Shown: in pieces, positions 51,277 through 53,101 of the stretch
How the letters are laid out: every line of letters begins with the position of its first letter
How positions within the stretch are numbered: the first letter of the stretch is position 1
Origin: Clostridia bacterium
Lineage (GTDB): Bacteria; Bacillota; Clostridia; Oscillospirales; Acutalibacteraceae
Direction of reading: 5' to 3'
Assembly: GCA_017516965.1 (NCBI GenBank)
Contig: JAFXAP010000004.1
Span: 1-64,000 of the forward strand
DNA length: 64,000 nt
Program-made: the position numbers and the translations under genes
Notes under the pieces: generated by a model
Seen by the model: the letters and a program-made list of their open reading frames with translations, nothing else
Told to the model about the DNA's origin: nothing
Databases searched by the model: none

Positions 51277-51720
51277 ATGTTGCCTGATAATAAAAAATAT
51301 AGTGAAATGGTAAAAAAGGCATCGCCACCGTCACCCAAATTAAAAGATTTTATTTGGGCTTTTTGTGTGGGCGGTGCCATTTGCGTTTTAGGACAGTTGT
51401 TAATAGAACTTTATACAAGTTTGGGAATGGAAGAAACAAAGGTTAAAATGGCGGTTCCCGTAACCTTGATTTTTTTAGCGGCACTGCTTACGGGTATAGG
51501 TGTTTTTGATAAAATTGCCAGGCGCGCTGGCGCAGGCACTCTGGTACCTATAACCGGTTTTGCAAATGCGGTGGTCTCACCTGCAATAGAATTTAAAAAT
51601 GAAGGGTTTATATTAGGGGTTGGCGCAAAGATGTTTACGATTGCAGGACCGGTAATTGTGTACGGCACTATTGCGAGTGTGATTTATGGAATTATTTATT
51701 GGATTGTGAAGATGATATGA
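51277..51720 (+). CDS. spoVAC: Stage V sporulation protein AC
   Basis: A 147-aa membrane protein that forms part of the SpoVA channel, which loads dipicolinic acid into the forespore and releases it at germination. After a polar N-terminus (20 residues) there are about four hydrophobic segments; ITGFANAVVSPAIEFKNEG and GAKMFTIAGPVIVYG are the well-kept SpoVAC parts. spoVAD and spoVAE usually follow at once; here a retron on the opposite strand follows instead. A second copy of the last 40 codons lies at 52967-53101. It shows that the organism can form spores or had sporulating ancestors. Confidence 0.95.
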   Translation: MLPDNKKYSEMVKKASPPSPKLKDFIWAFCVGGAICVLGQLLIELYTSLGMEETKVKMAVPVTLIFLAALLTGIGVFDKIARRAGAGTLVPITGFANAVVSPAIEFKNEGFILGVGAKMFTIAGPVIVYGTIASVIYGIIYWIVKMI

Positions 51721-51728
51721 ATGACAAA

Positions 51729-51750
51729 CGGCACCGATGGCTCGGTGCCG
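51729..51750 (-). terminator. Hairpin between the spoVAC and retron RT ends
   Basis: CGGCACCGA, loop, TCGGTGCCG: 9 GC-rich pairs. On the minus strand it is followed by TTTGT, a modest terminator for the RT transcript; it may also end spoVAC. Confidence 0.7.
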
Positions 51751-51758
51751 CTTAGTAT

Positions 51759-52670
51759 TCATATTAAACTTTTTAAATAATTTCGATAGCCCATAAATTC
51801 TTTATCGTTTGGACATACAGATAAAACATAGTTCACCTTTCCCATCAGCTTTAATATGTAACTTTCGACAGTATCGTTTATATTCGTAGATTCCATATGG
51901 TTATATACGCCGAATTTTTTACAGTAATAAATAGCTTGGCGAATATCTTTTTTATATTTTCGAGGAATGTTAAGTTTTTTGTTTACTATAATTCCTGTTA
52001 CAATTTGTTTGTTTGATTTATGCGCAACAATAGTTTTTTTATTGTTTAAAAAGAATCCCATTTTCCTTAATTCAAATCTTACATATTTTATAACTTCATT
52101 TGGATTAAAATTACCGGAAAAGGTCATATCATCACAATAACGAGTATATGCGACACCGTGCTTTCCACACCAAGAGCCTACAGCGTTATCAAACTCACAC
52201 ATTATGATATTTGAAATAAAAGGTGATGTTGGTGCTCCCTGAGGAAGAGCATCATTATAGTAGCAAAGCATAGAAAGTAAAATTCGTATATTTTCCGAAT
52301 ATTTTTCTTTTGGAAAAGCTTTCTCTTTTACTGTTGAATATAGAATATTGTTAAAGAAATCGCGTATATCAAGTTTTAGAACAATGTCTTTGTTGATATG
52401 CGGAGTGGCGTTTTTAATATTGCTTCCACCATATCTGTATGCCTTAGCATAGGGAGAAATGGTTATTTGTGACAATAGTACATCGGCTATTCTTTTTTGA
52501 ATGCATTTAAGTGGCATGTCAGGTATTGACAGAACACGATAACCGCCTTGTCTCTTGGAAATCTTAATCGAATGATAATGTCTATGCAAGGAATAACTGA
52601 TGGAATACAATGTTCTAATATCATACTCTAAATCTTGTTCAATTGAGGAAATTTCTTTATATACAATCAT
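51759..52670 (-). CDS. Retron-type reverse transcriptase
   Basis: A 303-aa RT with all finger/palm motifs and both retron hallmarks. RT region: RVLSIPDMPLKCIQKRI (45-61); NATPH (87-91, the NAxxH motif); LDIRDFFNNI with the first catalytic aspartates (101-109); LPQGAPTSP (142-150); YCDD (178-181); VTG (224-226) in the thumb. It has no maturase, integrase or effector fusion. The start is ATG 52670, with GTAGGGG before it. The frame is open 36 codons further up, but that stretch is the msd/a2 part of the RNA gene. It should copy part of the adjacent RNA to give msDNA. No partner gene is linked. Confidence 0.93.
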   Translation of the reverse strand: MIVYKEISSIEQDLEYDIRTLYSISYSLHRHYHSIKISKRQGGYRVLSIPDMPLKCIQKRIADVLLSQITISPYAKAYRYGGSNIKNATPHINKDIVLKLDIRDFFNNILYSTVKEKAFPKEKYSENIRILLSMLCYYNDALPQGAPTSPFISNIIMCEFDNAVGSWCGKHGVAYTRYCDDMTFSGNFNPNEVIKYVRFELRKMGFFLNNKKTIVAHKSNKQIVTGIIVNKKLNIPRKYKKDIRQAIYYCKKFGVYNHMESTNINDTVESYILKLMGKVNYVLSVCPNDKEFMGYRNYLKSLI

Positions 52671-52697
52671 TGGAAATACCCCTACTGTTTTATAAAC

Positions 52698-52879
52698 ATG
52701 CCAGTTAAACAAAACTTTGTGTATAGGAAATTGTGAAGATGTGTTGCGATGCATATGAAATATGCTTAAACACATCAAGCAATTTACTTGAGTATACGAA
52801 TATGTAATAGTTTAGTTATGCGATAACGACTCGCTATCGTTTCAACAAGGTTGAATTAACACTAATGTTTAACTGGCAT
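52698..52879 (-). ncRNA. Candidate retron msr-msd RNA
   Basis: On the minus strand: a1 ATGCCAGTTAAACA (52879-52866) and its exact reverse complement a2 (52711-52698), 14 perfect pairs. TTAG follows a1, with the likely branching G at 52862. msr hairpins: TTCAAC-ctt-GTTGAA (52855-52841) and CGATAGCG-agt-CGTTATCG (52839-52821). msd: GATGTGTT (52776-52769) with AACACATC (52745-52738), enclosing GCATAT-ttc-ATATGC (52765-52751). a2 ends 28 bases before the RT start. Order and spacing match known retrons. Confidence 0.88.
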
Positions 52880-52884
52880 TGTTG

Positions 52885-52913
52885 AGTATAACACATTGTC
52901 CTAATTTTGTAAA
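52885..52913 (-). promoter_or_regulatory. Retron promoter
   Basis: On the minus strand TTTACA (52913-52908), 17 bp, TATACT (52890-52885). The start of transcription would fall about 5 bases before a1, as needed for a functional msr 5' end. Confidence 0.82.
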
Positions 52914-52966
52914 GGAATAAACATAGAACTGCTATTTATTATACAAATATAAATACTGCGTCCTAA

Positions 52967-53101
52967 CTTGACCACAAGCAGAAGGGTTTCATCTTAGGCA
53001 TCGGCGCAAAGATGTTTACGATTGCAGGACCCGTCATCGTTTACGGCACGATAGCGAGTGTGGTTTATGGAATAATCTATTGGCTTACAACACTATTCTA
53101 A
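52967..53101 (+). pseudogene. Displaced 3' fragment of a second spoVAC
   Basis: Codons from C-L-D-H-K-type context through GFILGIGAKMFTIAGPVIVYG to a TAA stop repeat the spoVAC C-terminus: 31 of 33 residues and 84 of 99 bases agree over the shared core, with nearly all changes at third positions. The first 100 or so codons are missing and an in-frame stop lies just before (52964). A 29-bp core is identical in both copies. The codons end more often in C than those of the intact gene, so the fragment comes from a different lineage or an old paralogue. Confidence 0.9.

Follow-up and report, generated by a model that had tools for sequence, protein, structure and literature searches.

Ec107 (Eco5) is an RT-only retron of about 1.3 kb, with no effector known to be linked to its reverse transcriptase (RT). 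Integron gene cassettes are small, mostly single-gene units standing in arrays at one gene, with a repeated site. The staphylococcal cassette chromosome (SCC) elements use serine recombinases and insert in tandem at the 3' end of a conserved gene, rlmH; their units are far larger, many with ccr genes. Here we describe a retron from a 64,000-nucleotide stretch of a Clostridia bacterium (contig JAFXAP010000004.1, positions 1 to 64,000; hereafter the window) that resembles Ec107 in its RT and is packed behind the sporulation gene spoVAC. Ec107 of E. coli reportedly has a YCDD motif and replaces 34 bp of intergenic region, with no mobile element nearby (PMC6868368). Accretion of cis-mobilizable elements (CIMEs) at gene ends is established (PMC5704250), and one further source mentions spoVA genes on islands (PMC6907783).

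The window retron is one of many cassettes arrayed behind spoVAC in metagenome-assembled genomes (MAGs) of gut Oscillospiraceae and Clostridia. We regard it as probable that it is an RT-only, Ec107-like retron carried as a single-gene unit in a widespread spoVAC cassette array, whose sites were made by serine-recombinase elements.

Cassette arrays behind spoVAC

Intact spoVAC lies at 51277-51720 on the plus strand (TIGR02838 spore_V_AC, 184.6 bits for a cut-off of 164). A GA dinucleotide at 51601-51602 lies inside the gene, leaving codons 1-108 upstream and codons 109-147 at the head of the retron cassette. We term B' the spoVAC 3'-end segment starting at GA and P the conserved stretch just before GA. 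Aligned to a 1371-bp cassette of genome G058 (81% nucleotide identity), the retron cassette extends from GA to GA over 1380 bp (51601-52980). Its right end, P (GTCCTAACTTGACCACAAGCA, 52960-52980, plus strand), directly precedes GA and resembles the sequences that terminate other cassettes and recombinase-bearing elements. The second B' follows at 52981-53101 (plus strand), where a diverged copy of the last spoVAC codons, its frame one base off relative to GA, is succeeded by GGCTTGACC...GGTCAAGCC, with a terminator resembling those behind spoVAC in relatives. The original prediction had delimited the retron at 51729-52913, beside a spoVAC fragment; the fragment held up, being this second spoVAC 3' end, and the extent had to be replaced by the unit shared with G058. 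The duplication marks a cassette array, which accounts for a single gene lying between two 3' ends of spoVAC.

A spoVAC search of 60 relatives returned 19 3'-only fragments, 16 of them starting at residue 107-109. These lie in 11 genomes, the window's own not counted (G001, G003, G007, G011, G022, G024, G027, G033, G046, G056 and G058). The control gene tpiA, carried by 56 of the same 60 relatives and missing from four, gave zero 3' fragments; its G006 copy was divided between two contigs. Those spoVAC fragments that were aligned begin at GA after a conserved stretch, e.g. GTCCTATATTGACAGCAGCA or GTCCTACTTGACCACAAGCA, apart from a few decayed exceptions. Of 394 genomes of the order, 11 contain a 25-base degenerate junction pattern, whose reversed form, run as a control, gave 0 in each; the pattern also occurs in 87 stretches from an 84,980-genome collection and in one contig of a viral collection. 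The window's own cassette end has one extra base and is unmatched by it. The titles of the 87 stretches name Oscillospiraceae, Clostridia, Ruminococcus, Bacillota and others, mostly ruminant-gut MAGs where a source is given, and an in-frame spoVAC 3' end follows 98 of their 105 sites. Genome G011 has two spoVAC genes, with cassettes behind each (L053, L054).

We have extracted GA-to-GA units from 80 of the 87 collection loci and from loci fetched around spoVAC, L166-L172 being checked for sites and RT alone. Dropping exact duplicates, and nothing else, reduced 107 units to 97 distinct ones of 454-6357 bp (median 984). There were 74 units shorter than 1600 bp that hold an open reading frame (ORF) of 60 aa or more; 65 of these have no second ORF of that size, and the longest ORF is antisense to spoVAC in 70. 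An exact TTTACA-N16..18-TATAAT promoter reads into the cargo at 72 of 117 distinct right ends, as against 0 of 117 on the opposite strand, and lies 39-40 nt from GA in 56 of those 72. B' is in the spoVAC frame in all 43 first-position units and in 51 of 54 later ones. The plan of the array is thereby shown: units of about 1 kb, usually with one gene antisense to spoVAC, end in P and GA and are followed by another B'.

The cargo is diverse: the 154 cassette ORFs group loosely into 97 clusters, 27 of which have more than one member. Pfam gave no family for 12 of 20 cargo proteins and matches below cut-off for another 2; the remaining families were HTH_3, peptidase M28, DUF4304, Y1 transposase, DMP19 and Imm32, and another cargo is a GH43 protein. 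A PADLOC search with 10 cargo proteins had one match, mad1 (E 3.8e-10). In 39 similar cassette pairs, which passed a coverage filter and overlap in members, median identity was 0.83 inside the cassette, 0.63 in the left flank (34 pairs) and 0.60 on the right beyond B', for a baseline of 0.62 between random 200-nt pairs; L138/L151 is the one pair whose right flank is identical as well. One cargo family, at least 55% identical and with most members starting MSKKGIEAA, recurs in six arrays (L098, L132, L144, L149, L153 and L155), and its L153 member has no Pfam or PADLOC family. By eye, L118, L129, L132, L135 and L160 show ends of a second class, in which variants of TTTAGTCCTAATAGAACACGAA precede the site; such ends often border sense-strand or multi-gene units and possibly belong to another element family at the same GA.

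The retron cassette itself is found in a second family. In G058, a MAG that belongs to a different family within the order (water deer source, according to its title), the 81%-identical version stands on array contig JAGBHD010000062.1 (locus L149) as the third cassette from the spoVAC side, after a 157-aa ORF and a 173-aa lipoprotein-like ORF. The two RT proteins are 82% identical, compared with 69% (nucleotide) and 53% (amino acid) for the 5' part of the host spoVAC, and the right flanks are not alignable. No further retron cassette was present among the 87 loci and L173.

The retron and its missing effector

The RT is a 303-aa protein encoded on the minus strand at 51759-52670, with its ATG at 52670. 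It contains NATPH, YCDD and VTG, in agreement with the NAxxH, YxDD and VTG motifs of the retron clade, by which it had already been predicted to be a retron RT. Its top PADLOC model is RT_Ec107-like (PDLC03739, E 2.5e-125), followed by RT_III-A (2.9e-99), and a sequence search of the PDB placed the retron RTs Ec86, Ec83 and Ec67 first. Both results bear out the assignment to a retron clade, and the first makes it Ec107-like. The NCBIfam retron_St85 model scored 217.5, below its cut-off of 235. Against its closest relative, the RT of G058, the ratio of nonsynonymous to synonymous substitution (dN/dS) is 0.10.

Upstream of the RT lies a 182-nt noncoding RNA (ncRNA) with the order a1-msr-msd-a2 (52698-52879, minus strand). 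The a1 (52866-52879) and a2 (52698-52711) arms form a 14-nt perfect inverted repeat; when the 320-nt upstream region was dinucleotide-shuffled 300 times, no shuffle reached this length (maximum 12). Twelve Ec107-like loci, whose RTs share 48-100% identity with the window RT, supplied the ncRNAs that we aligned; L008 and L002 were left out, and the arms of L004 were set by eye. TTAG, with a candidate branch G, immediately follows a1, and its A and G columns are invariant. A model of three helices (a1/a2, msr stem and msd stem) pairs 92.9% of cells over 29 pairs, with two-sided changes in 14 of the 29 and a covariation score of 0.330. In 500 shuffles none equalled the real value for pairing, two-sided change or covariation, and sliding the partners lowered pairing to 33-49%. 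Arms and structure were partly picked by eye from the same sequences, which biases the pairing value upward and does not explain the two-sided changes. An Rfam scan gave three sub-threshold matches, none overlapping the ncRNA. A promoter-like TTTACA (52913-52908)-N17-TATACT (52890-52885) precedes the ncRNA at 52885-52913 on the minus strand, and G058 is arranged alike. The predicted succession of promoter, 14-nt a1/a2 repeat, TTAG and msr and msd hairpins was confirmed, the promoter from the sequence, the repeat by shuffles, TTAG by alignment and the stems by covariation, and a1/a2, whose loss in homologues would have spoken against a retron, is conserved. The window retron is thus a real element with conserved RT and ncRNA and, because the ncRNA covaries and dN/dS is 0.10, it looks functional rather than a relic.

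No effector accompanies it. The linked or fused effector of a tripartite defence retron is lacking, RVT_1 (PF00078) being the sole Pfam domain of the RT, and no other long ORF lies between the two spoVAC 3' ends. The predicted gap of 38 bp between the spoVAC and RT stop codons agrees with the coordinates. We have compared the neighbours within 1400 nt of 23 distinct Ec107-like RT loci from the window's own genome and order, after removal of duplicates and of L198, which has no open frame. No neighbour family occurred in more than two loci, with one weak exception, a 36-residue third match in L008 to a protein found in L002 and L006. The remaining sharings were the sibling-like pair L188/L190, one protein common to L008 and L193, and a short antisense ORF in L006 and L184. 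As in Ec107, no effector gene is linked to the window RT. Since the 23 loci have no common partner, a missing effector seems normal for this RT clade, and the RT-only state looks like a property of the Ec107-like clade as judged from gene neighbourhoods. The comparison of neighbours that had been suggested thus yielded no recurrent partner, and a complete retron with no linked effector was borne out. Of the three explanations put forward at the time, an RT-only type fits best, given the conservation of RT and ncRNA and the lack of a common partner, and a remnant of a larger system is weakened. The retron would make multicopy single-stranded DNA (msDNA). It would act either without an effector gene of its own or together with a partner from another locus, and its role would most likely be in phage defence or stress.

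Several other observations concern the RT and its surroundings. A terminator-like hairpin, GGCACCGATGGCTCGGTGCC, stands at 51730-51749 between the converging spoVAC and RT genes, and the G058 cassette has a similar one. The window's genome encodes a second Ec107-like RT on contig C12 (G000:C12:88120-89001; L002, L017, L197), which is 42% identical to the window RT, matches the same PADLOC model at E 1.7e-115 and has a longer open frame; the spoVAC search found no spoVAC piece in L017, the stretch around it. Genome G181 has two Ec107-like RT matches about 4 kb apart (G181:C26:164971-165720 and 169548-170444; L198 and L194), the first with three internal stop codons. Among 14 named control genomes, the archaeon Methanosarcina acetivorans alone matched the Ec107-like RT model at the threshold used, and a search of the viral contig collection with the window RT had zero matches.

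Serine recombinases at the same GA

Large serine recombinases adjoin the same junction. In L173 three of them are consecutive (535, 566 and 550 aa), with Resolvase and Recombinase domains and, in two of the three, a Zn ribbon. The C-terminus of the one nearest the junction is 98% identical over 127 aa in L113 and in L162/L075 (G125). In L113 a SpoVAD-like ORF, recognized by eye, comes after P, GA and the spoVAC 3' end; in L162/L075 the recombinase-adjoining junction is succeeded by a GH43 cassette. In G138 a 56% homologue, the closest to the junction of three such ORFs, adjoins a P-like end, the spoVAC 3' end and spoVAD. The recombinases of L173, L113, L162 and G138 therefore lie next to one shared target, P-GA-spoVAC 3' end, as in CIME accretion at a serine-integrase site, and it is shown that the GA of the cassettes is also the insertion point of elements with a large serine recombinase next to their P end. 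Recombinases of the TnpX/TndX type use a GA core. As the C-termini are 98-100% identical over 127 aa in three contigs, insertion at GA is recent. The L173 recombinase matched itself alone in the viral contig collection, and 11 phage records, all below 60% identity.

The other end of such elements can be seen in G019 and G058, in which spoVAC is cut at GA by near-identical sequence, with three differences counted by eye over about 140 nt. Its exact 20-mer, from the sole known other-end sequence, is in no cassette of the extracted loci, whose units are delimited by spoVAC 3' ends; elements with further kinds of end may exist. Beside the element end of G019 lies a DUF5348 gene; three other scanned ORFs had no Pfam match, and no complete element was seen. 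The G058 array contig terminates in nearly the same end sequence as L173, so that an element probably lies there between the spoVAC 5' part and the array. In L064 (G019) and L052 (G058), the element end breaks spoVAC at codon 108-109 and does not restore it; sporulation may therefore depend on excision, for which the skin element of B. subtilis offers a comparison.

Movement of the cassettes and its meaning

We propose that elements targeting spoVAC, probably integrative conjugative ones, would have made the sites by site-specific insertion, each event pushing the old spoVAC 3' end aside and bringing a new one in its place. Cassettes would then spread through the element recombinases acting in trans, or as passengers, and homologous exchange across the repeated segments, B' and promoter/P, would add to the spread.

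Several observations weigh against this proposal. Median identities over 30 pairs with shared cargo are 0.88 for cargo and P (maximum 1.00), 0.77 for the left B' and 0.73 for the next B', for a background of 0.72 between and 0.76 within loci. By eye, the left breakpoints vary from about 55 nt before to 25 nt after the spoVAC stop. No element circle, with P joined to the other element end, was found in the extracted loci, and a cassette circle and an array are indistinguishable by sequence. The G058 layout is drawn from two contig ends and not from one contig. A recombinase like that of L173 was absent at E 1e-100 from the window's genome and its 60 relatives, a search with no positive control, and at E 1e-120 was present in 1 of 394 genomes of the order, at most 3 candidates being scored in nearly all those listed. 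Tyrosine recombinase-like ORFs also lie 4-5 kb from two arrays (G007:C22:82977-83783 and G011:C5:10916-12382).

Because the left B' is not inherited together with the cargo, the moving unit is not simply GA to GA, and a strict GA-to-GA circle is insufficient. Taken with the scattered breakpoints, this means that homologous exchange through the repeated flanks contributes, or that excision and insertion use different crossovers. A comparison of 5' with 3' spoVAC divergence, aimed at the B' native to the host, gave a rho of 0.33 for 23 empty loci and of 0.24 and 0.18 for 42 array loci, the sequences being too diverged to point to either B'. One possibility is a shuttle, in which the element excises with the next cassette and drops it in a new host; this would fit the G058 layout, and it also predicts co-inheritance of B', unlike the identities observed.

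Movement might instead be by homologous recombination alone, over B' on the left and promoter/P on the right, the recombinases having made the sites long ago and being irrelevant now. The scattered left breakpoints, the B' that does not follow its cargo and mismatches seen by eye inside the promoter/P stretch of otherwise near-identical cassettes favour it, and we hold it to be possible, though on the doubtful side. Against it stand the near-identical recombinase C-termini at this GA in three contigs, which indicate recent insertion, and the occurrence of the retron cassette in two families. Right of GA, similarity is at background in 17 of 18 aligned pairs and continues in L138/L151; this also speaks against homologous recombination alone, weakly, since P is conserved anyway. 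The cassettes could also be deletion leftovers of decayed integrative elements accreted at a serine-integrase site, with the retron as passive debris. Such accretion at gene ends is established (PMC5704250), serine-recombinase elements occupy the same GA and the arrays include multi-gene units of up to 6357 bp. One would not expect leftovers, however, to arrive repeatedly at a lone antisense gene under a constant promoter a fixed distance from GA, nor near-identical ones to recur in unlike flanks, and the RT has a dN/dS of 0.10; we consider this reading unlikely.

A one-off duplication of the spoVAC 3' end upon self-insertion of the retron would recall Ec107, which reportedly replaces intergenic sequence away from mobile elements (PMC6868368). 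The same boundary nevertheless surrounds dozens of unrelated genes and no spoVAC piece occurs in L012-L019, the stretches around eight other RTs, and we have set this explanation aside as extremely improbable. As for function, the retron might act with an effector encoded elsewhere in the genome. A toxic effector is reportedly typical of retrons (PMC12548924), and the second Ec107-like RT on contig C12 points the same way; with no common linked partner in the 23 loci, we deem it rather unlikely. The serine-recombinase origin of the sites remains the reading that we prefer.

With Ec107 the window retron shares its best RT model and the YCDD motif (PMC6868368); it differs in being a cassette between spoVAC 3' ends that recurs in another family. 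The arrays are like those of integrons in their small, mostly single-gene units, many of unknown function, with a repeated site at one fixed gene. They differ in that the repeated site consists of P and the coding spoVAC 3' end, the cassettes bring their own promoter and the enzymes at the site are serine recombinases. An IntI-type integrase (TIGR02249) was above cut-off in 0 of 12 array genomes, half of which fall short of >90% complete and <5% contaminated, and in 0 of 14 controls, which leaves the search with no positive control. Weaker matches, in pieces, occurred in all 12 array genomes and all 14 controls; in G007 and G011 such a match lies 4-5 kb from an array. Identity with an integron is thus unsupported. 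Serine recombinases and tandem insertion at the 3' end of a conserved gene are shared with SCC at rlmH, whereas the spoVAC units are single-gene, carry no recombinase and stand at a sporulation gene. In contrast to accretions of integrative conjugative, integrative mobilizable or cis-mobilizable elements, they are about 1 kb long with one gene and a constant promoter, and are not decayed islands.

Among the papers that our literature searches listed, none reports a spoVAC cassette array in its title or abstract opening, subscription journals being mostly outside that coverage. Linked to serine-recombinase elements, the array is a variant of site-specific accretion at the least, and perhaps a cassette system in its own right. 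The chances are about even that it constitutes an integron-like system with no integron integrase, in which expression-ready cassettes gather at the spoVAC GA, serine recombinases rebuild the gene end and retrons are among the cargo.

What began as one odd retron now points to a hotspot of cassette exchange among rumen and gut Clostridia. With the array come candidate recombinases, a site and dozens of genes carried as cargo, many of unknown function; the array also ties gene capture to a sporulation gene. If this reading is true, a whole RNA-templated DNA-making system would be transferable as one cassette, and an effector-less retron common to two families as a self-contained unit sharpens the question of what RT-only retrons do.
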